Positions 6,204 through 34,198 of a stretch of DNA of 37,716 nt are shown here, piece by piece. Both the position numbers and the translations under genes were made by a program. Origin of the DNA: Candidatus Magnetomicrobium cryptolimnococcus (lineage in GTDB: Bacteria > Nitrospirota > Thermodesulfovibrionia > Thermodesulfovibrionales > Magnetobacteriaceae); the NCBI GenBank assembly GCA_018606805.1, contig JAGYWI010000026.1, positions 1-37,716 of the forward strand, written 5' to 3'. The notes under the pieces are model-generated. The model worked only from the letters and a program-made list of their open reading frames with translations, was not told where the DNA came from and made no database searches. Numbering within the stretch: the first letter of the stretch is position 1; every line of letters starts with the position of its first letter.

Positions 6204-9200
6204 TTAAAATATTTTAGAAAACCATGATTTTTTTTCAATAGGCTCTTCATTTAGCTGTTTTACTATATTATAAATAGTCTTTTTAGCCATATCCATATTA
6301 ACCCATCCAAAACCTCTCATTTGTAATTCCTTTGAAAGCATTACAATATCATCATCACTAAAAATCAAGCTGTCTGTTTTGCCACTTTGAAAAATCATTC
6401 GATGTACAAAATTTTTCAGATACGGTTTAACTCCATCATCCCATCCACCTATTTTACAGTAACGCAGTTGCCACTCCAGATACCAAAACGTAATTGAATA
6501 GTCCTGTCCTCCAGCCACCAGATAACGACCATCAGCACTTAATTGCACACACGTTACTGGCTTAGTGTGTCCTGTCATTACTCTTAGACACTCCCCTGTA
6601 TTTATATCCCAAAGCCGTATAGTCGTATCCGCACTTACCGACACCATATACTTAGCATCATTAGTAATATCAATAGCATTAATTGCTTTAGTGTGTAAGC
6701 TACACGTATAAACGGTCTTATCTGTAGCCACATCCCAGACCTTTATAGTACCATCAGCACTGCCTGTTATAGCGTATTTACTATTAGCGCTTAAACGTAC
6801 GCAAGTAACAGCATTTTCGTGATTAAACACCTGCACAGGAAGTTTTACCTGCTCATCAAGCACCCAAAGGCTTGCAGAGCCATCCTTACTACCTACAAGC
6901 ACATGTCCTACATCTACTCCTAACGATATAGACGTTGCCTCATTATTATGACCATACATAGTATACTTATTTTCTTTCGATACCATATCCCATATTTTAA
7001 TAGAACCATCTTTAAAGCATACAGTGGCATATTTGCCAAAACTATCCATATCTAAAGCAGTTATCATACCCCTTTTACCCTGAAACACATGGGTACATTC
7101 ACCACTTTCTGCATCCCAAAGCCTCAACGTACCATCCACACTTGTTGATAGCACCGAATCACCATTTGGCGTAATCATTAACCCTGTTATCTTTCTCTTA
7201 TGTCCTTGTAGTATGCGAAGTCTATCCCCTGTTTTCATGCTTAACATCTTAATTACACCATCGTTTGTCCCTACCACTAAGTATTCCTTAAATTTATTAA
7301 ACGCAATAGCAACTATCTCTGTATAATCCTCGTAGACCTTTTCTTTCCAAGAATTAAGCAACCTTTCCTTTGGTAGTATGTTTGTAAGTGCAGATATAAC
7401 ACTATTGGTTTCATTATCAAGTTTAATATCCCTAATATTGCGCAATTTATCTATTATATCAAGGGCTTCCTTTATTAGCCCTTTTTGAATAAATATTTCA
7501 GCTTGTCTAATGGAGTCGCTATAACGCTTATCAACAATAAGTGCTTGGTGAACAAGCCTTTCTTGCATTTGTACAAGCTTATTTCTTATTCCCTTTGGTT
7601 TTAACCAACCAAAGCCACGACAGCCCAACTCCCTGACCATGCGTTTAAACTCCTCATCAGTCCACAAAGGAGCAAGTTTTTGTCTTATTGGTTTATTTCT
7701 CAGATAAGGGGTATGGAGTGTTAAAAAATTTTCAATATATGGCAGTGCTCCGTCATCCCATTGGGCAAAATCTTTAACCTTGAGGTCCCATTCAATATAC
7801 CACATATTGACATTACCAAGATGATTGCCAGATAGTACGTATTTACCATCAGAGCTAAATGCAGAGGCGGTAATATTACCAGTTAGCCCTTCAAAAGCTT
7901 GGAAATATGAGCTGCTTCCAAACTGCCATATACGGAGCGTTCCATCACTGCTACCAGAAAGTAGGAACTGGCCATCAGGACAATACGCCAACGTATTAAC
8001 ATAACCGTCATGTCCTTCAAAAACCGTATTTGGCTCGGCTGTTTCCATATCCCATATCTTAATACTCCTATCTACTCCACAAGATGCTACATACTTACCA
8101 TTAGGACTAAACACCAATGCCTTCACCTCATCCATATGCCCCATAAAAACCCTTTGACGCTCACCTGTTGGTATATCCATCATGTACACAAGAGGCTCAC
8201 CAGCACTATAAACAAAGCTGCTGCCATCAGGACTCATGCTTATAGCACTAACACCGCTTTTAAGCCCTTTATATACCTTAACCTCGTTACCTGTTTCCAC
8301 CTCCCAAAGCCTTATGGTTTTATCCAAGCCACCAGAAAACAAGAAACGCCCATCAGCCCCCAACGCTATAGCCCTAACCCCTGCCACATGATTGTTAAAT
8401 ACACGTACACAGGTACCATCTTTTATACTCCACATCCGTATGGTTTTATCCATACCGGCTGATATAACAAAAGGCGCCATTGGCACAAACAAACATGCCG
8501 TAACTTCCCCCTCGTGCCCTTTTAGTACATGTATAATCCTACCAGTACTACTTTCTCGTAGTATAAGAGTCCCATCGGCACTTGCTGATAATAACATACG
8601 ATTGTCTAAACTAAAGGCAAGGCAGTTAATAGCCCCTCTGTGGTCTTCAAAGAGTCTAACGTTACGGGCAGAGTGTATCCTATTTCTTATACATAGACAT
8701 GCTAAGCGGTCAAGTATTTCCTGCGCCCTGCTGTCGTTTTCATAGCCTTTTAAGGCTCTGGCATATTTTATCTCCTCAATGGCTTCTCTAAACTGGCCAA
8801 CCTTTAGATGCTCCCATGACAGCTTTATTTTGTTTTGGAAGGTACTCGTACGCTCAAGGTCTTCTTGCTCCTGGCTTTTAGCAAGTTCTATTAAGCGATT
8901 GCTTACCCACTCAATACGCAACCACCCAAACCCTCTATGTTTAAGCTCATTAATTAGAGCGTTAAAATCCTCCGCTTCCCACTCCGGCATACCACGACGT
9001 ACTAATGTGTTTTGTAAGTATGGGGTATGAATTTTTAGAAAATTCTTAACGTATACATCAGCACTTATATCATAGTCAACAAAAGCCTTAATATCTGGCT
9101 CCCAGTCAAGGTACCAACTCCTTACCGTGCCATCTTCCATAGCAGCAAGAAAAACACGAGCCTCAGCACTTATAGATAGTGAATTAATAGCCCCCGAATG

Positions 9201-12200
9201 CAGATTAAACACACGCAAACACCGAGCGCTATCCACATGCCAAAGACGTACAGTACCATCTTTACTTGCAGATAGCACAAATTGTCCATCCATCGTAATA
9301 CACAGCGCATTAATCCAATCAGTGTGCCCTCTAAGGGTACGTTGCGTTTTACCGTGCAAATTCCATAGCACTATATTGCCACCATACATCCCCCCGGCCA
9401 TTACATAGGACTTATGTGCAGGCAAAGATATACACCAAAGCGGATTATCAGGCACACGATACGAATTTATCGGCGAGGTATCATGTAACACCCATAAGCG
9501 TACGGTTTCGTCATACCCACATGACACGATAAACTCCATATCTGGGCTAAAAAGAGCAGCCGTAACCTTGTTGTTATGCCCTTTATAGATTTTAATAGTT
9601 TCTCTTGTTTTAATCTCCCAAAGCCTTATAGTTTCATCAAAACTTGCCGTTAGAAGAAACTCCCCATCTGGACTTATATCTAAAAAACTGACAGCAGCCG
9701 TATGACCATAAAATTCGTAAACTAAAGAGCCTTCCTTAACATCCCACATGTAGATAATACTGCTATCATCACAAGAAAAAACATATTGGTCATCAAGACT
9801 AAACTTTATACATTTAATGGCGCTACCATGCCCCTTAAACTCCCGTACCAGTTGTCCAGTTTCCATATCCCACAGATAGATAGCCTTATCAGCGCCACCT
9901 GATAGCGCCATAGAACCATCAGCACTGAGGGCAACGGCTGTTACAGCGGCTGTATGTTTTTTTAAATACTGAAGCTCCCAGGCATTTAAAAGCCCCTTTT
10001 TGGGAAAATAACCAATAGCCTTTTCATAAACATAAAGAGCCTCTCTATCGCGTTCGTATCCTTTAACAGCCCTAGCCTTTTCAACAATTGCTGGCACTTT
10101 GTCATACTGGGCGTTTTCCAAACACTTAGTAGCCTCATCTATAAATGCTCGAAACTTCCACTCCCTTGTCTCAGCCTCTATTGATGTAACCGGCACAGCT
10201 ATAGCATAAGGCAGCAGGTAGCGGTTTTTTATGTTTATAAGCTTTAAACCATTCCATACACAAACCATTGCATAAGCATCATCCGGCGTTAGGGCTAAAT
10301 CTGCAATCTCATGGCCACTAAAAAGCCCCACCTTCTGCCCTGTTTCTATATCCCATATACATATCTTATTATCAGCACTACCGGTTATAATATAGTTATC
10401 ATCATGGGTAACCTTTATGGTGCTAATACTACCGCCCAGCCCCTTAAATTCTTTTATCTTAAGACCTGTAGCAAGCTCCCACATGTGTACAACCATGTTA
10501 TCACCACCTGAAAATATCCACCTATTTTTCCAATCAACACAAAGAGTCTTTGTTACCCCATCTTGGGCGTCTATTTTTCTTAAAAGCTTACCCGTAACTA
10601 TATTCCATATACATATTAAAGAGTCAACGCTAACTGAAACAGCATAAAGGCCGTTTGTGGTAACAGTTACGGAAACGATACCTACCGAATGTCCCTGCAT
10701 TGTACGTAATAACTTAGCGGTTGATATTTGCCAATAGCGTATAGTACCATCATTACCTCCAGATATAAAAAACTTTCCATTTGGCATAAGCGCAAGTGTA
10801 GTTACCCAATCGCTATGGCCAGTAAATGTCCGTAAAACCTTACCTGTACTTAAATTCCAAAGCCGTATGGTCTTATCATTACTTGAAGAAAGTGCAAAGT
10901 GCTCACCCGGTAAAAACACCACATCAGTTACCCAATCACTGTGCCCGGTAAACGTTTTAATACAAAGGGCATTTTCCACATCCCACAGGCGCACAGACAT
11001 ACACTCACTACCGGCAGATATGGCACGCTTACCATCCGTACTCATATCAACAGCACTAACAAGCCCGCTGTGGCCATCAAAACGACTTATTGTTTCATGG
11101 CCGGGTATGTACTGGTGCACAGCATCTGTTAAAAGCCCTGGCATGTGTTTTAAATGCTGAATTTCCTTTTTATAAAAAGCATCTCCTTCTTTAATAGCAC
11201 CTTGCTTTATTAGCGATAGGGCAAATACGGTTATAACCTGAGAGTCTTTATATCCCAAATCAAAAACCTTCTTCGAGTACACCTCAACCTCTTTCCAGTA
11301 AGCACTAGCCCCAACATCCTCTCTGGCCTCTATACCTTCCCGTCCCTGTCCTTCAGCCGATAAGGCTATGGCAAGCCCCCTTAGCTCATCAAGCGATTTA
11401 TCCCCGCCCGAGCCAGCTTTTTTATAGGCTTCAACGGCACGATTATAGTTACCAAAAAACATGTACAAGTTTCCAAGCAGATGATAATCACGTTTGGTTA
11501 TGTCTTGCCCCTTAAGGGCATCATCCATACGCCTAAAAAGCTCTTTTTCAGCAATAACGCTATTTTTCCATTCAAATAGTGATAGATTAAAGGTAGATTC
11601 AAGGTGGCCGGGGTCTACGCGTAGGGCTTCGTGCCAGAGGGTTTCCGCTTCTTCCTTATTGCCAAGGTCTAAAAGCGAGATGGCACGATTATTTAACCTA
11701 TCTGCCGTTGCGCGCCCTGCTATGTACTCAGGTCTTGGATAGTGTCGTCCTGTTATTTCACGGTATATCTCTTTAAGGACATCCACAATGGTAAGCATAT
11801 CTGCTGGTCGGTCTGTTATTTTTAGTGCAAAACACCAGCGAAGAAGTTCAACAAGCTTTGGTGGCATATCTGGTATAGCAGCGTTAGCAGCGCCTTCTTT
11901 TAGGTATCCATCTAAAACAGAAAGCGCTACAACCCCATTATACCATTTGACCCCCCCAATAAATATCTCAAGTATAGAAAGCCCCCAAGACCACATATCT
12001 GTTTTTTTGGTTAAACGCGCCCCATCTGCCTGCTCAGGCGAACAATAAGCTGGTGTTAATCCACCGCTGGTTACAACAACACTTTGCTCAGGAGACAACT
12101 GCCGCAGCATACCCTTGCCATCTGAAAATGTTGTAGCCTTTGCAAGCCCAAAATCAGTCACCTTCGCTATAGCATCTGTTGTCAACATCATATTTGCAGG

Positions 12201-12629
12201 CTTAACGTCCTGATGAATAAGCCCATACTCATGAGCATAGTGAAGTCCCCATGCTATTTGAATTGCTATATCAATAATTGTTTCTATACTGTGAATTTTT
12301 CTTCCCTTTATCCAGTCCCTGAGACTACCGCCACCAACAAATTCTGCAAAAACACTCGGTATTCCCTCTATTCTGCGCACATAGTAACAGCTTACAATAT
12401 TAGGGTGCAGACCAAGATTTATCCAAGTCTCAGCCTCTTTCTCAAAGTTCATTTTCTGGATTTCTGTCTGGAAATACTCATTGCGCGGGCTTTTCATAGC
12501 AAGGTCTGTACCCCAGCCACGATGGCGTATCCTGTAGACTAGCCCCATACCACCTGTTTTATATACTTCCTTCACCTCATAGAGGTCAAGAATGACATCC
12601 CCGACTTCCCATTCATTTTTAGTTATCAT
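6204..12629 (-). CDS. Giant Ser/Thr protein kinase with TPR region and four seven-bladed WD40 propellers
   Basis: 2141 residues, no signal peptide or membrane span, so probably cytoplasmic. Residues ~10-290 are a eukaryotic-type kinase: glycine loop TGGMGLVY (25-32), catalytic Lys46, HQD catalytic loop (139-141) with Lys143 and Asn146, and DFG (159-161). The usual HRD arginine is Gln140. Residues ~310-500 are TPR-like. Then come 28 WD40 blades in four groups of seven: ~516-806, ~886-1182, ~1324-1622 and ~1765-2063. Helical linkers follow blocks 1 to 3. Blocks 2, 3 and 4 are each followed by a related ~80-residue module carrying RGFGW. Kinase-WD40 fusions are known in bacteria (PkwA of Thermomonospora), but this one is unusually large. 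It is likely cotranscribed behind two ATPase genes (84-base gap). The weak ribosome site leaves ATG 12629 probable but not proven. Confidence 0.92.
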   Translation of the reverse strand: MITKNEWEVGDVILDLYEVKEVYKTGGMGLVYRIRHRGWGTDLAMKSPRNEYFQTEIQKMNFEKEAETWINLGLHPNIVSCYYVRRIEGIPSVFAEFVGGGSLRDWIKGRKIHSIETIIDIAIQIAWGLHYAHEYGLIHQDVKPANMMLTTDAIAKVTDFGLAKATTFSDGKGMLRQLSPEQSVVVTSGGLTPAYCSPEQADGARLTKKTDMWSWGLSILEIFIGGVKWYNGVVALSVLDGYLKEGAANAAIPDMPPKLVELLRWCFALKITDRPADMLTIVDVLKEIYREITGRHYPRPEYIAGRATADRLNNRAISLLDLGNKEEAETLWHEALRVDPGHLESTFNLSLFEWKNSVIAEKELFRRMDDALKGQDITKRDYHLLGNLYMFFGNYNRAVEAYKKAGSGGDKSLDELRGLAIALSAEGQGREGIEAREDVGASAYWKEVEVYSKKVFDLGYKDSQVITVFALSLIKQGAIKEGDAFYKKEIQHLKHMPGLLTDAVHQYIPGHETISRFDGHSGLVSAVDMSTDGKRAISAGSECMSVRLWDVENALCIKTFTGHSDWVTDVVFLPGEHFALSSSNDKTIRLWNLSTGKVLRTFTGHSDWVTTLALMPNGKFFISGGNDGTIRYWQISTAKLLRTMQGHSVGIVSVTVTTNGLYAVSVSVDSLICIWNIVTGKLLRKIDAQDGVTKTLCVDWKNRWIFSGGDNMVVHMWELATGLKIKEFKGLGGSISTIKVTHDDNYIITGSADNKICIWDIETGQKVGLFSGHEIADLALTPDDAYAMVCVWNGLKLINIKNRYLLPYAIAVPVTSIEAETREWKFRAFIDEATKCLENAQYDKVPAIVEKARAVKGYERDREALYVYEKAIGYFPKKGLLNAWELQYLKKHTAAVTAVALSADGSMALSGGADKAIYLWDMETGQLVREFKGHGSAIKCIKFSLDDQYVFSCDDSSIIYMWDVKEGSLVYEFYGHTAAVSFLDISPDGEFLLTASFDETIRLWEIKTRETIKIYKGHNNKVTAALFSPDMEFIVSCGYDETVRLWVLHDTSPINSYRVPDNPLWCISLPAHKSYVMAGGMYGGNIVLWNLHGKTQRTLRGHTDWINALCITMDGQFVLSASKDGTVRLWHVDSARCLRVFNLHSGAINSLSISAEARVFLAAMEDGTVRSWYLDWEPDIKAFVDYDISADVYVKNFLKIHTPYLQNTLVRRGMPEWEAEDFNALINELKHRGFGWLRIEWVSNRLIELAKSQEQEDLERTSTFQNKIKLSWEHLKVGQFREAIEEIKYARALKGYENDSRAQEILDRLACLCIRNRIHSARNVRLFEDHRGAINCLAFSLDNRMLLSASADGTLILRESSTGRIIHVLKGHEGEVTACLFVPMAPFVISAGMDKTIRMWSIKDGTCVRVFNNHVAGVRAIALGADGRFLFSGGLDKTIRLWEVETGNEVKVYKGLKSGVSAISMSPDGSSFVYSAGEPLVYMMDIPTGERQRVFMGHMDEVKALVFSPNGKYVASCGVDRSIKIWDMETAEPNTVFEGHDGYVNTLAYCPDGQFLLSGSSDGTLRIWQFGSSSYFQAFEGLTGNITASAFSSDGKYVLSGNHLGNVNMWYIEWDLKVKDFAQWDDGALPYIENFLTLHTPYLRNKPIRQKLAPLWTDEEFKRMVRELGCRGFGWLKPKGIRNKLVQMQERLVHQALIVDKRYSDSIRQAEIFIQKGLIKEALDIIDKLRNIRDIKLDNETNSVISALTNILPKERLLNSWKEKVYEDYTEIVAIAFNKFKEYLVVGTNDGVIKMLSMKTGDRLRILQGHKRKITGLMITPNGDSVLSTSVDGTLRLWDAESGECTHVFQGKRGMITALDMDSFGKYATVCFKDGSIKIWDMVSKENKYTMYGHNNEATSISLGVDVGHVLVGSKDGSASLWVLDEQVKLPVQVFNHENAVTCVRLSANSKYAITGSADGTIKVWDVATDKTVYTCSLHTKAINAIDITNDAKYMVSVSADTTIRLWDINTGECLRVMTGHTKPVTCVQLSADGRYLVAGGQDYSITFWYLEWQLRYCKIGGWDDGVKPYLKNFVHRMIFQSGKTDSLIFSDDDIVMLSKELQMRGFGWVNMDMAKKTIYNIVKQLNEEPIEKKSWFSKIF

Positions 12630-12713: not shown

Positions 12714-14312
12714 TTAACCAGTCCACCCAATAGGCACAACCGTTACTTTAACATCTCCAACTAAATGTTCACTATATAACTGTTCATGCACCTTTGCATC
12801 CTGAGAAGCTACAAAAAGAGCAATCGTTACTGAATCTTTCCCAAGGCTACTTGCGTATTTAGCAGCTTGTTTTGTAAATTTTTCAACCTCAGAGCCTTTA
12901 CTAAAACTTTTAACCTCAATAATACCAGTTTTTTGTCCACATATGATATGTAAATCTACCTTACCATTGCCAGTAGGAAACTCCGGACTAATCACGCACT
13001 CATCACCAATGGCCGCTTGCAACCACGCATAAAGATGAAAATGTCCCACAGCCTCCGTGTAATTTAAATCAACACGTCTTGGTTGGTCTTTCCACGGATT
13101 AAGCCCCTTGGCCTTTAACCGTATTAAGTAATCTTTGTATCGTTGCAAAAGTGCTGGCAGATTTAGTCGTTGTGGCTCAAATACATCTTCAAGTGTATCT
13201 AATATGTCTAGGGCTAGAATTGGAAGGCTATCACCCACCAAGGTATTCGTCAGTGCATTATAGAGCCGCTCTTGAACAAATGGGGAGGAAAACCGACAGA
13301 CATTAATAGTTTTTCCTTTATCATCTATTAGAATTTCATTATCTATAACCCCATTCATGTATAGATAATTGCACCAATCTTTATCCATCGTAAATAGAAT
13401 TTCTGACTTAGCAAACAAAGATATTACGTGTTCTTGATATTCTTTCTTAGTCTTCTTTATAAGGTTTAATATTGTGTTATTCCACTCTATAGTTAAGGCA
13501 TTATTATAAACCAGCCCCCACACTCTATTATCAATAGGTTTATCTTTGGCTTTATTGTACTTTTCCGTAATAAGCTCACCAAACCAAGATACTATCCCCG
13601 GCTGCCCACGCGTTACTTCATACACCTTATCTATTACTACAGAGTCAATCCCTTGACCACTTTCTTCTATATATTGAGAAAACAATTCAAAAACCTCTTC
13701 TTTAGTAAAATTTGGTATGTGCATTGACCGCTGTATATTAAACGGAGAGCCTCGCTCACTTTCTACACCAAGCACTGCCCTTACTCCAATTAAAGCTAGC
13801 CCATGCAATAGGTATGAATCCCTGTCAAGATACATATCTCTAAACTGATTGACTAAACGGTCTATAAATTCTGGTGGCAGTTTATCAAATTCATCAATAA
13901 ATAGTATTACTGGACGGTCAAATATCCCATTTTTAAGAAAAATATCACTAAACCCTTCCCACTCATTAGGCTCATCTACATTTATATGGAAAGTTTTTTT
14001 TAATAGGCGAGGGATTTTAATTAAAAATTCATCAATATAACTCTCATCAGAATGTGTCTTTCTAAAAGTAACCCCCTGCATAGACATAGTACCAACAATG
14101 AATCTATCACCGTAGCGAGAAACTATTTTGTCCTTAACTTGCCTCATAATCCACGTCTTACCGCTTTGCCTTGGTGCCCATATCGTAAAATAGTGTCCTC
14201 CTTTATCTATGTTGCCAACCAACTGCCTTGTGCATTGCTCTATTAATTCAGTGCGCTGCACACAGAAATGTTCTTCACAATCTACCGGCCCATATGAATA
14301 AAATACCCTCAT
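12714..14312 (-). CDS. AAA-like ATPase with C-terminal PD-(D/E)XK nuclease-like domain (paralogue A)
   Basis: 532 residues. The N-terminal ATPase has a P-loop APRQSGKT (46-53, Lys52), Walker B ILFIDEFD (Asp140, Glu141) and the SMHIPNFTKEEVFELFSQY lid typical of the AAA_35/STAND-like ATPases often found beside WD40 proteins. The middle is helical. The C-terminal ~100 residues carry PEF (Glu444), GKVDL (Asp453) and IIEVKSF (Glu466-Val-Lys468), the D-Xn-E-X-K arrangement of PD-(D/E)XK nucleases. ATP-regulated DNA or RNA cleavage is a reasonable inference and is not shown. It lies 24 bases downstream of a close paralogue and 84 bases upstream of the kinase-WD40 gene, all on the same strand. Specific function is unknown. 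Confidence 0.82.
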   Translation of the reverse strand: MRVFYSYGPVDCEEHFCVQRTELIEQCTRQLVGNIDKGGHYFTIWAPRQSGKTWIMRQVKDKIVSRYGDRFIVGTMSMQGVTFRKTHSDESYIDEFLIKIPRLLKKTFHINVDEPNEWEGFSDIFLKNGIFDRPVILFIDEFDKLPPEFIDRLVNQFRDMYLDRDSYLLHGLALIGVRAVLGVESERGSPFNIQRSMHIPNFTKEEVFELFSQYIEESGQGIDSVVIDKVYEVTRGQPGIVSWFGELITEKYNKAKDKPIDNRVWGLVYNNALTIEWNNTILNLIKKTKKEYQEHVISLFAKSEILFTMDKDWCNYLYMNGVIDNEILIDDKGKTINVCRFSSPFVQERLYNALTNTLVGDSLPILALDILDTLEDVFEPQRLNLPALLQRYKDYLIRLKAKGLNPWKDQPRRVDLNYTEAVGHFHLYAWLQAAIGDECVISPEFPTGNGKVDLHIICGQKTGIIEVKSFSKGSEVEKFTKQAAKYASSLGKDSVTIALFVASQDAKVHEQLYSEHLVGDVKVTVVPIGWTG

Positions 14313-14336: not shown

Positions 14337-15923
14337 TCAAATAGTCCATCCAATAGGCACAACTGTTACTTTAACCTCCCCCACTAGATGTTCACTATAT
14401 AACTGTTTATGAACCTTTTCATCCTGAGATGGTACAAAAAGAGCAATCGTTACTGAATCTTTACCAAGGCTATTTGCATACTTAGCCGCCTGTTTTTTGA
14501 ATTTTTCAACCTCAGTACTTTTACTAAAACTCTTAACTTCAATAATGCCAGTTTTTTGTTCACATACGATATGTAAATCTACCTTACCATTGCCAGTAGG
14601 AAACTCCGGACTAATCACACACTCATCGCCAATAGCCGCTTGCAGCCACGCATAAAGATGAAAATGTCCCACAGCCTCCGTGTAATTTAAATCAGCACGC
14701 CTTGGCTGGTCTTTCCAAGTATTAAGCCCCTTAGCCTTCAACCGCATTAGATAATCTTTATATCGTTGCAAAAGTGCTGGTAGATTTAGTAGTTGTGGCT
14801 CAAATACATCTTCAAGTGTATCTAATATGTCTAGGGCTAGAATTGGAAGGCTATCACCCACCAAGGTATACGTTAGTGCGTTATAGAGCCGCTCTTGAAT
14901 AAATGGAGAGGAAAACCGACAGACCTCAACCTCTTGTGTTTTTTTTATTTGGGTTTCACTATCAATTATCCCGTTAAGATATAGATAATTACACCAATCG
15001 GTATCCATATTAAATATTACATCAGATTTTGCAAATAGACTGAATACTTCTGAGGTATATTGACTTTTCGCCTTTTTAATAAGATTAAGGACTGTATTAT
15101 TCCACTCTTTGGTTAATGCCTTGTGGTATACTGAAGTCCATAAAGCCATATTAACAGGGTGTTCTGTATCCTTATTGTATTTTTCCGTAATAAGCTCTCC
15201 AAACCACGAAACGAGTCCCGGCTGCCCACGAGTTACTTCATAAACTTTATCTATTACTGTAGGGTCAATCACTTGACCACTTTCTTCTATATATTGAGAA
15301 AACAGCTCAAAAACCTCTTCTTTAGTAAAATTTGGTATGTGCATTGACCGCTGTATATTAAAAGGAGAGCCTCGCTCACTTTCCACACCAAGCACTGCCC
15401 TTACTCCAATTAGGGCTAACCCATGCAATAGGTATGAATCTCGCTTTAGATACATATCCCTAAATAACGTTACAAGTCTATCTATAACCTTTGGTGGAAG
15501 ACTATCAAATTCGTCTATGAATAGGATTACTGGACGGTCAAATATCCCACCTTCACGATAGAAAATATTCTGTATTTCTGTCCAAACCTTTGGATACTGT
15601 ACATCCAGTTTAAAACTTTCCTTCATTAATTTAGGAATATTATAAAGAAAGCTTTGAGGTGAATCGCCTTCTTCAAAGATAACCCCCTGCATAGACATAG
15701 TACCAACAATGAATCTATCACCGTAGCGAGCAACTATTTTGTCCTTCACTTGCCTCATAATCCACGTCTTACCGCTTTGTCTTGGTGCCCATATCGTAAA
15801 ATAGTGTCCTCCTCCCTCTGGCTCGTCTACAATATGGTTTAGACAATCCTCTACCAGGCTTTGTCTCATAACACAAAAGTGTCTCCTGTTATCTACAGGT
15901 CCATATGAATAAAATTTTCTCAT
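14337..15923 (-). CDS. AAA-like ATPase with C-terminal PD-(D/E)XK nuclease-like domain (paralogue B)
   Basis: 528 residues, first gene of the presumed three-gene operon. AAGGAG sits nine bases before the ATG, and a good promoter-like pair lies upstream (15955-15983). The layout equals the downstream paralogue: P-loop APRQSGKT, Walker B ILFIDEFD, the same lid segment and a C-terminal nuclease-like motif (GKVDL followed by GIIEVKSF). The two proteins are almost identical in the P-loop region, in the ~140-residue stretch after Walker B and in the C-terminal third. They differ strongly at residues ~20-38, ~83-125 and ~275-345. That patchwork suggests duplication followed by gene conversion in the conserved parts and diversification of regions that may bind partners or ligands. 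Activity is inferred from motifs only. Confidence 0.82.
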   Translation of the reverse strand: MRKFYSYGPVDNRRHFCVMRQSLVEDCLNHIVDEPEGGGHYFTIWAPRQSGKTWIMRQVKDKIVARYGDRFIVGTMSMQGVIFEEGDSPQSFLYNIPKLMKESFKLDVQYPKVWTEIQNIFYREGGIFDRPVILFIDEFDSLPPKVIDRLVTLFRDMYLKRDSYLLHGLALIGVRAVLGVESERGSPFNIQRSMHIPNFTKEEVFELFSQYIEESGQVIDPTVIDKVYEVTRGQPGLVSWFGELITEKYNKDTEHPVNMALWTSVYHKALTKEWNNTVLNLIKKAKSQYTSEVFSLFAKSDVIFNMDTDWCNYLYLNGIIDSETQIKKTQEVEVCRFSSPFIQERLYNALTYTLVGDSLPILALDILDTLEDVFEPQLLNLPALLQRYKDYLMRLKAKGLNTWKDQPRRADLNYTEAVGHFHLYAWLQAAIGDECVISPEFPTGNGKVDLHIVCEQKTGIIEVKSFSKSTEVEKFKKQAAKYANSLGKDSVTIALFVPSQDEKVHKQLYSEHLVGEVKVTVVPIGWTI

Positions 15924-16075: not shown

Positions 16076-19000
16076 TTATACATTTTTTATTATATAAACA
16101 CCAATGACCTGAGCAAGATTATGAACATACGCCTTAGCAGCAGCACTATCATATTTAAGCAAATTGGTTTCTATTTCTGCAATATGTGCGATATACAAAG
16201 AGTCTTTAAGTAACTCCTTTAGAAACACCAAATACTTAAAAGCCTCTGCTACATCCTTATCAATAAGTACCAATAATTTGTTCAGTATATTTTCAAGTCC
16301 CTCTATATCATTGACTTTAGAAACTGCTTTGGGTACATTGTTGTCTATATTTTTTATCTGTTGTTCAAACCTCAAAAGCCCATTTAGCACTACTTCAAAT
16401 GCCTGTAAAAAATCATCCAAAAGGGCTGAAAACCGTTCAAAATGCCCTACACGAATTGCCGTTTCAAGTTCATTTGCAGCTTGGAACAAATCCTCTGCCC
16501 CTATACTTCCAGATAACCCCTTTACCGAGTATACGAGCTTTTGGGCTGTTATATAATCACCAGCATTAATAGCCTTCTTTATATCATGCAGTACATGTAT
16601 GTTATTTGCGTAAAATTTATTAAGTATATTAATATATTTCTCACGGTCGTTACCCGTGCGCCCAAGCCCCTTCATTACCGAAATACCTGGCAAGGTTGGC
16701 AAGATAGTATCACTCGGTGCTAAATGTGTAGATTTTATAGCGTTTTCTTTTGGTTTAGTCCACCGGATTAGTTTTTTAAGTAAAATATTCATATCTATTG
16801 GTTTTACTATATAATCATTCATACCAGCTTTGATATATACATCAATTTCTTCTTTAAAGGTATTAGTAACCATAGCTATAATTGGTATATTTGTGTCAAA
16901 ATTATTAGTATCTTGACCTCTTATATACCTTGTAGATTCTAAACCATCCATTACAGGCATCTGTGTATCCATAAGAACAAGATCAAAATGTGTTGTTCCA
17001 AGAAGCGCAATAGCCTCCTTACCATTTGAAGCAATCTGAGCAGTAAATCCATATTTATTAAGTGCAGTTAAAGTTATCTCCTGATTTATCAAGTTATCAT
17101 CTACAACAAGAATATGCAATCTATGCTTATAACTATTTACCTGCGTATTTACACATAAAACCTTCTGTTGCTCAGTAACTACATCAATAGCACGTGAAAC
17201 ACAGGCATAAAGAGCAGAATATTTTACCGGTTTGGTTAAATACTCGTTAAAACTATCACCATTACTAATATGCTTTATTACTTTATTGGCTACTGTTTGA
17301 CTACGTAACATAATTATCTTAACACCTTTAAGCCTTGCATCTGAATGAACCATGCGTGCAAGCGTTTTACCATCAACATCAGGCATATCACTATCAATAA
17401 TAACAAACGTGTAACCACTATCTTCTGCTGCCTTATTTAACATAACTAAGGCCGTATTGGCATCTGGGGCATCATCTGCCGCTAAGTGCCAAGACTGTAG
17501 AAGGTCTTTCAAAATCCTGCGGTTTGTCCTGTTATTATCAACAATAAGGGCACGCACATTACATTTATCTATACTAAAAGGAAGGTACTGTTTGTTAATT
17601 GCGGGTAGTTTTTTAAAAACTGTTGTAAAATAGAAAGTGGTACCTGTGCTACCACTATCAACACCAAGCTGCCCGCCCATTAACTCTACAAAACGTTTAA
17701 TTATCGGCAAACTTAGTTTTTGTTCATAGTACTTACTTGTGATTTGAAATGTGGTAGGCTCTGATAAATCAAAAATATTACAAGCCCTCTCTGTGGAAAT
17801 ACCAGTGCCAGTATCAATTACTTTAAATGTTAATCCTATTTGTTGATTATTTTCTTTGAAAGACTTATCGGTTGAAACATCAAGTAAGACCTCACCATCT
17901 TTGGTATATTTAATGGCATTATGTAAAAGGCTAATCAGTACTTGTCTAAGGCGCATCTGATCAGCAATTAAAAAAGTATAAACACCGGCTTCTATATGAT
18001 AGAAATATTCAAGCCCTTTTTTTTCTGCTTGCAACGAAATAGTATCATTTATCTGTTCGATGAAATTAATAAGTTCAAACCCTGACTGATACAGTGATAG
18101 TTTGCCACGTTCTACCTTTGAAAAATCCTGTATATCGGTTATAACACATAGGAGGCTACCAGCGTTTTGTTTTATTGTTTCAATGTATTGCTGCTGCATT
18201 TTTGTTAGCTCTGTATCTAATAAAGACACAGCCGCCCCGACAATTATATTTATCTTAGTACGAAGCTCCTGCGCTATGCTTGTAATAAATTCACGCTGGC
18301 TTTTATTTTCAAGCTCAGCCCCCTTAGCTTTATTAGTAACCTGTTTAACCGTAATAGCAAGCTGGCTGTTTGAATCCTGAAGCCGTCTTATTTCAGCCTC
18401 ACAGCTTAGTTTAACATTCCTTAAGCTATTTTCAGCAGTTTTACGCTCTGTAATGTCTACAAAAACAAGCATATACATGTCTTCATTTGATATACTCAGT
18501 GGCACTATTGTCTTAATCAGATGCCTTTTAGTACCCTCTAAGGTAAATATATCGGTTTCATATGTTACAATTTTGTTTTTACCCTTTGAAGATAAATACC
18601 GTTCTTCATCTGCCTTATTAAATAATAAACTAGTGTATAGCTCCCCTATAATAGAGTCCTTTGATATAACCTCAAACATTACTGCCGCTGCCTTATTCAT
18701 ATTCTTAATCTTTGTATCACTGCCAATTACCACAATTCCAACAGGTAAAAAATCAATTATAGTATTTGCTCTAAAGAAAGACTCATCTAATGCCTTATTA
18801 TTTAAACTCAAGCCTTCTATTTGTTTTCTAAATGCCTCTATTATTACTTGAAAACCACATAATGACTGTTGCAATTCATCCCCTTTACATATATCTTCCA
18901 ATGATTTGCCTGTGAGTTCTTTAGTAAGACGCAAGACTTCCACCTTAAGTTTAGCTAAAGGCCTTATTAAATAAAAAATAAAAAGTACGCTTATAACCAT

Positions 19001-19150
19001 AGCAACACCAAAAACATAAAATGCCCTTTCATATAAAGGCACCATTTGGGTATCAGAAAAGCCCTGCACATAAAAAATTATTACAGCAGCTAACACCAAC
19101 CCCAACATACCTGCAAGCTTACATACAATACTGCGATTTATTTTTATCAT
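16076..19150 (-). CDS. Hybrid sensor histidine kinase-like protein lacking both phospho-accepting histidines
   Basis: 1024 residues from ATG 19150 (TTG 19168 is the alternative). Two membrane spans (~11-28 and ~44-62) flank a short periplasmic loop. A PAS domain (~125-245), a HisKA-like helix pair, a HATPase domain, two receiver domains and a C-terminal HPt domain follow. The H-box reads FITSIAQELRTK: the expected His is Gln294. The N-box (LLHNAIKYT, Asn411) and DTGTGIS are kept, but the glycine-rich G2 region reads YYEQKLSL. Receiver 1 keeps Asp586 and Lys640. Receiver 2 is canonical (Asp728, Thr762, Lys783). In the HPt motif the His is Tyr874 (VYSVKG instead of AHxLKG). Canonical His-Asp relay within this protein therefore looks impossible. 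It may be a phosphatase, a scaffold, or a target of other kinases. Confidence 0.9.
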   Translation of the reverse strand: MIKINRSIVCKLAGMLGLVLAAVIIFYVQGFSDTQMVPLYERAFYVFGVAMVISVLFIFYLIRPLAKLKVEVLRLTKELTGKSLEDICKGDELQQSLCGFQVIIEAFRKQIEGLSLNNKALDESFFRANTIIDFLPVGIVVIGSDTKIKNMNKAAAVMFEVISKDSIIGELYTSLLFNKADEERYLSSKGKNKIVTYETDIFTLEGTKRHLIKTIVPLSISNEDMYMLVFVDITERKTAENSLRNVKLSCEAEIRRLQDSNSQLAITVKQVTNKAKGAELENKSQREFITSIAQELRTKINIIVGAAVSLLDTELTKMQQQYIETIKQNAGSLLCVITDIQDFSKVERGKLSLYQSGFELINFIEQINDTISLQAEKKGLEYFYHIEAGVYTFLIADQMRLRQVLISLLHNAIKYTKDGEVLLDVSTDKSFKENNQQIGLTFKVIDTGTGISTERACNIFDLSEPTTFQITSKYYEQKLSLPIIKRFVELMGGQLGVDSGSTGTTFYFTTVFKKLPAINKQYLPFSIDKCNVRALIVDNNRTNRRILKDLLQSWHLAADDAPDANTALVMLNKAAEDSGYTFVIIDSDMPDVDGKTLARMVHSDARLKGVKIIMLRSQTVANKVIKHISNGDSFNEYLTKPVKYSALYACVSRAIDVVTEQQKVLCVNTQVNSYKHRLHILVVDDNLINQEITLTALNKYGFTAQIASNGKEAIALLGTTHFDLVLMDTQMPVMDGLESTRYIRGQDTNNFDTNIPIIAMVTNTFKEEIDVYIKAGMNDYIVKPIDMNILLKKLIRWTKPKENAIKSTHLAPSDTILPTLPGISVMKGLGRTGNDREKYINILNKFYANNIHVLHDIKKAINAGDYITAQKLVYSVKGLSGSIGAEDLFQAANELETAIRVGHFERFSALLDDFLQAFEVVLNGLLRFEQQIKNIDNNVPKAVSKVNDIEGLENILNKLLVLIDKDVAEAFKYLVFLKELLKDSLYIAHIAEIETNLLKYDSAAAKAYVHNLAQVIGVYIIKNV

Positions 19151-19175
19151 GTGTGATTTGTCTACCAAAACAAAT

Positions 19176-19193: not shown

Positions 19194-20930
19194 CTACAAG
19201 TAATTTTGTGCAAGCAGTATACCGTTAACAAAACAAGTATATGCCTGTGGGGCTTGGCTTACTGTAAGGGCAAATGCCTTGCCAATTTGTTGAGCTATTT
19301 GCCTAAAGTCAGGATTTCCAGTTATTTTTTCAAGACGAATCATATTAATCAAGGAAACAGAATTACCCGAAGGAAGAGCCCCATCATAAATTTCCTTTGG
19401 CCTTATCAGAAATCTTTCTCCATATGAAGGGGTAAGAAAAAAAGCCCCCCTTTCATTATCCCAGAAATTGTCCAACAGATGCTCTGTTAAAGTAAGACAC
19501 AGTTGTAAATATTGGTCATCTACAGTGCTTTCATAAAGCTCAATGAGAGCCCATATAAAAAACACGTAGTCGTCAAGGTTTCCATTTATTGCAACATTAC
19601 CGGACCTGTACCTACGTAAAAGCCTTTTAGTGTTTTTATCAAACATGGTGTTTACTATGAAATCTGCCGCCTTTATAGCAGCAACGGTGTATGGCTTATG
19701 GTCTAAGGTATGCCCTGCTATAGTAAGCGCTACTATCATGAGACTATTCCAGTCAACTAATATTTTATCATCACGGTGTGGACGAGGTCGCTTTTGTCTT
19801 TGAATAAACAGTTTTTTAAGTGCCCCATCCATACCTTGTTTTAGTGCAATGTTTTCCACATATATTATATTTTTTTCCTCAGCTTGTATATTAAAAAGCT
19901 TCATTTCCTCATGGTCTAAACATGCCTCAAATTCCTTCCTATCCCAAAGGTAATACTTTCCTTCCTCCCCCTCACTATCTGCATCCTCAGCACAGTAAAA
20001 CCCCCCCTTTTCATCCGCAAGGTCCCTTAACACATAATCGGCAATCTCACAAGCGGTTTGTTTAAATAACTCGTTACTTGTAATCCGATAGGCTTTTACA
20101 TAGGCAATCATAAGCAAAGCCTGATCATAAAGCATCTTTTCAAAATGTGGCAAAAGCCACTGCCTATCCGTGCTATAGCGGTGAAATCCATACCCTACAT
20201 GGTCGTAAATTCCGCCACTACGCATCTTTATAAGCGTGTTTTCAACCATTTGAAGCGCCCTATCATCCCCCCTCCAAATATAATATTCTAATAAAAATAA
20301 TAGGTTATGAGGTGAAGGGAATTTGGGCTGGCTACCAAACCCACCATATTCACTATCGTAAATACTTAATAGCTGCTCATAGGCTTTTTCTACAGTCTTA
20401 GGGTCCGGAAAAGTACCACCTTGTCCACTATTTTGCGCATCTATAAACATATGAGTTACTTTGTTTGCCATACTGGTTAATTCATATCTTTGGTTTACCC
20501 AAAGTTTCTTTATGTTAGGTATAAGTTCAATCATACCAATAATGCCAAAGCGGCTGAGTTTTGGTATATACGTTGCGGCAAAGAATGGCCTTTGGTCCGG
20601 TGTCATAATTATAGTAAGAGGCCACCCACCCCGACCAGTCATCATCTGGCACAAAGACATATAAATACTGTCTATATCCGGCCGTTCCTCTCTATCCACT
20701 TTTATAGAAATAAATGTCTCATTCATAATGGCTGCTACTTCAGCATCATCAAAAGATTCCTGCTCCATGACATGGCACCAATGACACGTAGAATATCCAA
20801 TTGATAGGAAAACTAATTTATTTTCCCTCTGCGCCCTATCAAAGGCTTCCTCAGTCCAAGGATACCAATCCACTGGATTAGCTGCATGTTGCAATAAATA
20901 GGGACTATTTTCATATTGAAGACGATTCAT
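19194..20930 (-). CDS. YyaL/SSP411-type thioredoxin-domain protein (N-acylglucosamine-2-epimerase-like C-half)
   Basis: 578 residues. The N-terminus ([20 protein letters not shown], then [10 protein letters not shown] with Cys49 and Cys52) is the diagnostic start of the YyaL/spermatogenesis-associated protein 20 family, a thioredoxin fold. The rest is an (alpha/alpha)-barrel like glycan epimerases, with FHRYSTD and [18 protein letters not shown] motifs. Biochemical function of the family is not firmly established. Usual family members are near 650-700 residues. This one ends just after the QAYTCF segment, where relatives continue for about 100 residues, so the C-terminus seems missing. No frameshifted continuation was seen in the following bases. 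There is no clear Shine-Dalgarno sequence, but a TTGACA-containing promoter lies directly upstream. Confidence 0.88.
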
Positions 20931-33024: not shown

Positions 33025-33107
33025 CATGGAGCTAAAGTATTATAAATTTTCTTTTCTTTTTTCAGTTTTTTCTTTTATTATAACAAAAACACATGGGGGC
33101 TCTTGTT

Positions 33108-33422
33108 ATGATACTTACAAATATCGAAACAGTGCCGGGTAAAAATATAATTGAGCACTACGGGCTTGTTTCTGGCAGCACAGTTAGGGCAAAGCACATT
33201 GGAAAGGATTTTTTGGCAGGATTAAAAAACATTACAGGGGGCGAACTAAAGGCATATACTGAATTATTAAAAGAATCACGTGATGAGGCTATAAAAAGAA
33301 TGGTTGAGCAAGCCAAACAACTTGGCGCAAATGCCGTTATTAACATACGGTTTTCGACATCAGCGGTAGCTCAAGGGGCTGCCGAACTATATGTATATGG
33401 CACAGCCGTTAAGGTTAAGTAG
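33108..33422 (+). CDS. YbjQ/UPF0145-family protein
   Basis: 104 residues from ATG 33108 (MILTNIETVPGKNI), which has GGGGG about ten bases upstream; ATG 33093 has no ribosome site and adds five residues not seen in the family. The sequence shows the YbjQ pattern: VPGKNIIEHYGLVSG, a central GGELKAYTELLKESRDEAIKRM helix and GANAVINIRF followed by YGTAV. These small proteins form pentameric barrels; their function is unknown (older annotation: heavy-metal-binding). It is followed two bases later by a second, membrane-anchored YbjQ-like gene. Confidence 0.9.
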   Translation: MILTNIETVPGKNIIEHYGLVSGSTVRAKHIGKDFLAGLKNITGGELKAYTELLKESRDEAIKRMVEQAKQLGANAVINIRFSTSAVAQGAAELYVYGTAVKVK

Positions 33423-33424
33423 AG

Positions 33425-34198
33425 ATGGACGAGGGTTGGATTAATGTTATTTTCTTCCTTATCCTTATAACCGTTGGTTATACGGTTGGGAGATATAATG
33501 AAAAAAAACACTATAAATCCATCATAGAGCGCGAAGGCAAGCTTTTAGCGTTGCCAGCACTACCAATGCACAAGGCTATTGACATGGGGCGGGAGATTAA
33601 ACATGTTACGCTTGTAATTGGAGGTGCTGTCATCTCTGTAGATTATTTTAAGAGTTTTTTAGGATTTCTTGTTAGTTTATTTGGTGGTAAGATTAGTGCG
33701 TACGAAACCCTTATTGACCGAGCACGGCGTGAGGCTGTTTTGCGTATGAAAGAGGAAGTACCAGAGGCTGATATTATTTTAAACGTACGTATAGAAACTG
33801 TGTCTATTGGTAAAGAGGCTCAAAATGCCGTTACAAGTGTTGAGGCTATTGCATATGGAACAGCTATTACATATGGAGCGGCTATTAAACATAATAAGCA
33901 GGAAATTGTTCTTAAAAACGCTGCAGTTGACGAGGAGGAGGAGGACGAGCATACTATACCAATTGATTACGTGTATCAGATTGTTTTTTCTGGGGAAATT
34001 GCTAAAGGAGAGGACATTTTTGAGGTTAAAAGACGCATTATTCAAACATTCAATATATCAGAGCGTAAATGCGACCTTATGTTTTATGGGCATACCTTAG
34101 TTGTTAAAAACAATATAAACTATGATAGGGCGCTTAAATACAAAAAACTGTTTGATAGTACCGGGGCTATTTGCCATATACGCCCGCTAATAGAGTAA
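33425..34198 (+). CDS. Membrane-anchored YbjQ-like protein with an extra C-terminal domain
   Basis: 257 residues; the ATG lies two bases after the previous stop, so translation is coupled. Residues ~6-22 form one membrane helix (INVIFFLILITVGYTVG). Residues ~50-150 repeat the YbjQ fold (KISAYETLIDRARREAVLRM, then ADIILNVRIET and AIAYGTAI). An acidic linker (EEEEDEH) leads to a ~70-residue C-terminal domain with YQIVFSGEIAKGEDIFEVK, FNISERKCDLMFYG, VVKNNINYDRALKY and TGAICHI. I have seen this pattern at the ends of various bacterial membrane proteins, but cannot name it. The gene pair probably encodes a soluble and a membrane-bound partner. Function is unknown. Confidence 0.78.
   Translation: MDEGWINVIFFLILITVGYTVGRYNEKKHYKSIIEREGKLLALPALPMHKAIDMGREIKHVTLVIGGAVISVDYFKSFLGFLVSLFGGKISAYETLIDRARREAVLRMKEEVPEADIILNVRIETVSIGKEAQNAVTSVEAIAYGTAITYGAAIKHNKQEIVLKNAAVDEEEEDEHTIPIDYVYQIVFSGEIAKGEDIFEVKRRIIQTFNISERKCDLMFYGHTLVVKNNINYDRALKYKKLFDSTGAICHIRPLIE

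Follow-up and report, generated by a model that had tools for sequence, protein, structure and literature searches.

A hybrid histidine kinase homologue without its two phospho-histidines in Candidatus Magnetomicrobium cryptolimnococcus: evidence for a pseudokinase that may have been retained

Is a hybrid histidine kinase whose two phospho-histidine positions are both occupied by other residues a protein kept for a changed role, or a gene in the course of being lost? The question is raised by one gene in a 37,716 nucleotide stretch of DNA from Candidatus Magnetomicrobium cryptolimnococcus, which is referred to here as the window. A sequence-only reading of this gene had proposed a pseudokinase with a changed role and not recent decay.

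On the minus strand, the gene runs from an ATG at 19150 to a TAA ending at 16076. Its 1024 codons contain no stop, in agreement with the intact frame claimed earlier, and the plus strand of 16076-19150 is non-coding, with many stops. The ORF program itself chose another start, a TTG that lies six codons further upstream at 19168; residues are numbered here from the ATG. The order of domains is membrane segment, PAS-like, HisKA, HATPase_c, receiver 1 (REC1), receiver 2 (REC2), HPt and helical tail (Table 1), which is the order found in tripartite hybrids of the BarA/GacS type. HisKA, HATPase_c, the receivers (best stretch 680-794) and Hpt were recognised by Pfam above gathering scores, and PAS_9, at residues 136-235, scored below the cut-off. 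The best NCBIfam match of the protein is BarA, far below the cut-off (293.6 bits against 890). The structure model is of moderate quality (mean pLDDT 64.3, pTM 0.40, lid residues 463-477 below 50) and serves only to show the presence of the domain folds.

Table 1. Positions in the window of the kinase gene, its domains and altered codons, and the adjoining upstream gene.
Feature	Position	Strand	Details
DUF255 thioredoxin-domain gene	19194..20930	(-)	directly upstream; 43 nt gap to the kinase ATG
Pseudo hybrid histidine kinase, 1024 aa	16076..19150	(-)	ORF, Pfam and structure model; membrane segment by eye
HisKA (DHp) domain	18104..18298	(-)	aa 285-349; Q294, E295, T298, K299; no His
Codon 294	18269..18271	(-)	CAG, Gln at the phospho-acceptor His site
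HATPase_c (CA) domain	17624..17962	(-)	aa 397-509; G2 lost; N411 and G1 (D446, G448, G450) kept
Codons 475-480	17711..17728	(-)	YEQKLS against GGTGLG in relatives (G2 box / ATP lid)
Receiver 1	17186..17557	(-)	aa 532-655; D538, N539, D586, R616, K640
Receiver 2	16769..17113	(-)	aa 680-794; D684, D685, D728, K783 kept; switch Thr replaced by V761
HPt domain	16397..16624	(-)	aa 843-918; identity to other HPts ordinary
Codon 874	16529..16531	(-)	TAC, Tyr at the HPt phospho-His site; K877 and G878 kept

The residues of the kinase were compared with those of its relatives in an alignment whose rows are homologous frames from loci in relative genomes, in the window's own genome and in named contigs. 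The relatives sampled are the closest kin, taken from the upper part of the best matches listed and not from the whole set; the counts exclude the window and one duplicate and may still include a few fragments that overlap within a single gene. At the H-box, 123 of 125 relatives carry His where the window kinase has Gln294; the two exceptions, both hybrids, are L046 from Lachnospiraceae, with Gln, and L059 from Chitinispirillales, with Glu. No His is found at any position of the HisKA stretch, and residue 299 is Lys against Pro in 125/125 relatives. Codons 475-480 read TAT GAA CAA AAA CTA AGT; the glycines at 478 and 480, present in all 126 relatives, are both gone, while Asn411 and the G1 residues Asp446, Gly448 and Gly450 are kept. 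At the phospho-site of the HPt domain Tyr874 stands against His in 80/84 relatives, and none of the three His of the domain (852, 855 and 903) occupies it. The loss of the G2 glycines and the replacement of both His, read earlier from the letters, were thus confirmed, with the CAG and TAC codons found on the minus strand. Compared with an active hybrid of the BarA/GacS type, the window kinase shares the domain order but lacks both phospho-His, the G2 glycines and the ATP lid.

The receivers were likewise said to keep their Asp and Lys, and they do (D586 and K640 in the first, D728 and K783 in the second), but the statement was incomplete, as the Thr/Ser switch residue is missing in both. In receiver 2 the acidic pair is present together with the canonical Asp and Lys, and Val761 occupies a switch position that is Thr or Ser in 98/98 relatives. 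This loss could be a sign that decay has reached receiver 2 as well, or that its shape no longer responds to phosphorylation. Receiver 1 has Asn539 in the acidic pair, against Asp in 77 of 99 relatives, and Arg616 at a switch position that varies among relatives (35 Thr and 32 Val of 90). With a HisKA-HATPase fold present and residues for at least one catalytic function lost, the protein would be counted among the pseudo-histidine kinases. Its predicted status as a pseudokinase is well supported, the acceptor His, the HPt His, the G2 glycines and the H-box Pro being gone together.

How rare are these losses? Within the window's own genome, HisKA sites carry His in 51 of 53 cases, the two exceptions being the window kinase and a 308 aa kinase frame with Asn, and HPt sites carry His in 7/8. 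The Gln-type H-box pattern was matched in 2/395 genomes of the phylum, the window included; the second match lies antisense to a 181 aa frame, has no frame of at least 150 aa on its own strand and was dismissed as a chance hit. With His in place of Gln, the pattern gave 53 matches in 19 family genomes. Among relatives, the HPt His is replaced by Tyr in L153, by Ser in L208 and L221 and by Gly in L217; Pfam sees no HPt domain at these four loci, so they are weak evidence and were not accepted as proof that this His is frequently lost. Published figures put a missing phospho-His at about 0.9% in HisKA and 0.9% in HPt domains (PMC12632262). No hybrid kinase without both His was recognised in the titles and abstract beginnings of the literature searched; subscription journals were mostly uncovered and novelty is unproven. 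The window kinase is an uncommon member of a class of proteins that has been described before.

Three other unusual kinases were seen during the comparison. A hybrid of 1515 aa from the window's own genome (L153:2474-7018, on C62) has intact H-box and G boxes, Ala for the phospho-Asp of receiver 2 and Tyr where the HPt His would stand, in a region unrecognised by Pfam as HPt; a third receiver and a GGDEF domain follow, and its losses nearly complement those of the window kinase. A small kinase of the same genome (L236:2596-3504; C5:97165-97362) has Asn for the H-box His with G1 and G2 intact and adjoins genes that by eye resemble dnaN and dnaA. In the Chitinispirillales hybrid (L059:429-2249), the Glu at the H-box His site is a possible phospho-mimic and the G2 motif is intact.

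No orthologue of the window kinase was found in the 40 genomes searched as relatives, in 18 other genomes of the family or in a draw of 395 genomes of the phylum. The whole-protein matches listed in the 40 genomes are hybrids with 29-38% identity. N-terminal matches were rejected as orthologues: they are of PAS type, with top scores of 38 bits among the family genomes and 49 bits among those of the phylum. In the tree, the window kinase has no reliable sister and stands beside the Lachnospiraceae hybrid (L046:7569-9623) only through long branches. That protein, very distant from the window kinase, has an independent change of the H-box His to Gln, a degraded kinase core and a canonical second receiver; it differs in having no HPt domain that Pfam finds.

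The DUF255 gene upstream, possibly co-transcribed with the kinase, is present in 14 other genomes of the family and was used to look for an orthologue by position. By eye, and with some flanks incomplete, no same-strand hybrid kinase follows it in the flanks of the relatives, and an orthologue by position was rejected; part of another kinase gene lies near the DUF255 gene in two genomes (G009 and G017). Since the relatives' flanks hold no such kinase, the window kinase looks like a local addition beside the DUF255 gene. In the window frames scanned with Pfam there was no response regulator, and the kinase is therefore considered an orphan.

As no orthologue was found in the genomes searched, selection after the loss of kinase function has to be argued from a single sequence. 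An error of sequencing or assembly at the key codons is extremely improbable: the changes affect three separate sites, five lid codons are substituted, and the G2 motif is not encoded in any other frame. Whether the gene is on its way out, with kinase function gone and the remainder merely undecayed so far, deserves closer weighing. It is an orphan without orthologue, its branch in the tree is long, at 1.35 changes per column, and receiver 2 and other conserved columns of the kinase show additional losses. Each row of the alignment was left out in turn and conservation was taken from the rest. The window kinase has lost 32 of 105 columns conserved at 90% or more, the second highest loss of 92 rows (median 2.9%), and this loss is beyond chance.

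The losses are unevenly spread. At the same cut-off, 23/63 columns were lost in HisKA and HATPase_c versus 4/31 in the receivers (Fisher p 0.028; p 0.070 with a 95% cut-off and 0.0055 with 80%). When rows were ranked by median identity, the window kinase was second lowest in both DHp (of 127) and CA (of 128), 18th from the lowest of 92 in receiver 1, 13th of 100 in receiver 2 and 44th of 64, above the middle, in HPt. Divergence is concentrated in the kinase core; the receivers are moderately low and the HPt is ordinary, which speaks against general decay. Among the 61 rows that have all five domains, the window protein shows the widest gap between receiver/HPt identity and kinase identity, but by a narrow margin (0.32, against 0.29 in the next row), and with the alignment anchored on the window protein this gap is supportive, not decisive.

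Neutral drift was simulated in 400 runs with base changes only and no indels. At 0.02 changes per site the frame stayed open in 13% of runs, which leaves some room for decay. At 0.05 changes per site 5.2 stops arose on average and the frame was open in 0.5% of the 400 runs; at 0.1 the mean was 10 stops, and none of the 400 runs kept the frame open. By hand count, eight or more substitutions within 18 bases are needed to go from GGTGLG to the present codons 475-480, yet the 1024 codons contain no stop or frameshift. A neutral origin of so many changes in the lid is unlikely, because stops would be expected elsewhere in the gene. Moreover, no shifted frame hides a G2 motif, and codon-position composition is gene-like in each domain. 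Uneven losses, the open frame, the gene-like composition and the changes in the lid together favour a protein kept for a non-kinase role. A retained pseudokinase is, as judged from these features, the best reading over decay, which we consider quite unlikely, although selection may have ended very recently. The earlier rejection of recent decay is thus supported and unproved.

Which role could such a protein have? By sequence, the closest solved kinase cores are those of GacS (7z8n) and RetS (6dk7, 6dk8, 7n0e); by fold, with a model of moderate quality as the query, they are ShkA (6qrj), GacS and RetS. RetS of Pseudomonas aeruginosa is, by analogy, the best working counterpart. As described in PMC5992135, this hybrid carries two receivers, and its degenerate HATPase has no G boxes; Asp858 of its receiver 2 accepts phosphate from GacS-P, it acts as a phosphatase on the GacS receiver through the HExxT motif, for which Thr428 is needed, and it blocks GacS autophosphorylation. 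Shared with the window kinase are the HisKA domain, a HATPase that is degenerate at least in part, the two receivers and the E and T of HExxT. The two differ in that RetS, which acts on GacS, keeps the H-box His and the complete HExxT, whereas the window kinase has Gln at this place; in that the G boxes are absent from RetS, whereas the window kinase lost G2 and keeps G1 and Asn411; and in that the parts of RetS described there have no HPt, whereas the window kinase adds a His-less one.

On this analogy, His phosphate would be neither made nor relayed by the window protein, which may have been kept, anchored in the membrane, as a regulatory partner or damper of active hybrid kinases; we regard this tentatively as a serious possibility, short of a probable one. 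Its HisKA helices would pair or dock with an active hybrid kinase of the same cell, the putative partner, and Asp728 of receiver 2 could accept phosphoryl groups from it. These would be lost by hydrolysis, since receiver 2 has no switch Thr and no HPt His is available for onward transfer. The His-less HPt might occupy a receiver surface without phosphate transfer, and the net effect would be damping of another relay, as RetS does to GacS. Hybrid kinases regarded as active are encoded in the same genome at C43:24869, C5:17494, C38:25562, C39:88771 and C62:69877. Of the acts of RetS, phosphate uptake by Asp728, a block by pairing and perhaps phosphatase action through Glu295 and Thr298 would be available to the window protein.

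The last of these could also be its main function, Glu295 and Thr298 stripping phosphate from the receiver of a partner. Both residues are kept, RetS sets the precedent with its HExxT and Thr428 (PMC5992135), and in HisKA proteins the His contributes to phosphatase activity and is not essential for it, according to PMC12632262. The keeping of the two residues is weak evidence, as Glu is found at 295 in 125/125 relatives and Thr at 298 in 123/125. Pro299 and neighbouring H-box columns are altered, and the authors of PMC12632262 take the frequencies to argue against phosphatase activity as a general function of pseudo-histidine kinases. A response-regulator phosphatase is considered unlikely here.

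Another role would be that of an allosteric sensor, in which the dead core binds a phosphorylated regulator or kinase and signals by contact, its own receivers needing no phosphate. DivL of Caulobacter, which is not known to be a hybrid carrying receivers or an HPt, provides the example. According to PMC4211667, DivL has Tyr at the H-box His site, shows no kinase or phosphatase activity and senses DivK~P; apart from this His, it keeps the H, N, G1, F and G2 boxes. Replacement of the H-box His, a kept fold and a predicted lack of His phosphorylation are shared with the window kinase, but DivL retains the nucleotide boxes including G2, which the window kinase lacks. A second precedent is the pseudokinase ChrS, which, as PMC9491836 describes, supports a paralogue by aiding transfer from HrrS to ChrA. 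Loss of the switch Thr also speaks against phosphorylation of receiver 2 as a signal. On the other hand, receiver 2 still has its acidic pair, its Asp and its Lys, which would be superfluous for a pure scaffold. A sensor of this type is doubtful.

The damper reading can be taken a step further through the HPt domain. Plant AHP6 is a pseudo-HPt, with the HPt fold and without the phospho-His, and is thought to compete for receivers. Such pseudo-HPts are separate plant proteins with a different residue at the phospho-site; in the window protein, the His-less HPt is a domain of the hybrid kinase. The protein might act as a trap, both His stations having been removed, the receivers taking up phosphate from others and the Tyr-bearing HPt capping receivers. 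This is conceivable, if on the doubtful side, and would unite inhibition of the RetS type and of the pseudo-HPt type in one chain. A chain that has lost both relay stations but keeps its receivers and its HPt fold offers a natural test of the non-catalytic roles of hybrid kinases. If the protein is indeed a sink or decoy, the signature of a dead kinase with a live receiver Asp and an ordinary HPt without His could reveal silent regulators, which annotation would label active kinases.

Downstream of the kinase lie two AAA_35 genes, followed by the gene for a WD40 protein. A conserved operon with these genes was considered and rejected, as the AAA_35 family is dispersed and is found elsewhere between unrelated genes. 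A defence-system reading of the kinase was also dismissed, PADLOC giving only weak receiver matches. The AAA_35 genes themselves (window 12714-14312 and 14337-15923) belong to a family represented in the genome by eight full-length copies and a broken one, which are 66-79% identical to the query copy and lie each between unrelated genes; matches were found in 4/18 other genomes of the family. The AAA_35 gene looks mobile or repeatedly duplicated. The WD40 protein (window 6204-12629, 2141 aa) matches the PADLOC models PD-T4-6, which we take to be a kinase, and mad6 over its first 290 residues, which suggests a serine/threonine kinase domain at its N-terminus. Elsewhere in the window two YbjQ-type genes stand in tandem (33093-33422 and 33425-34198), the second being longer and giving the weaker match.
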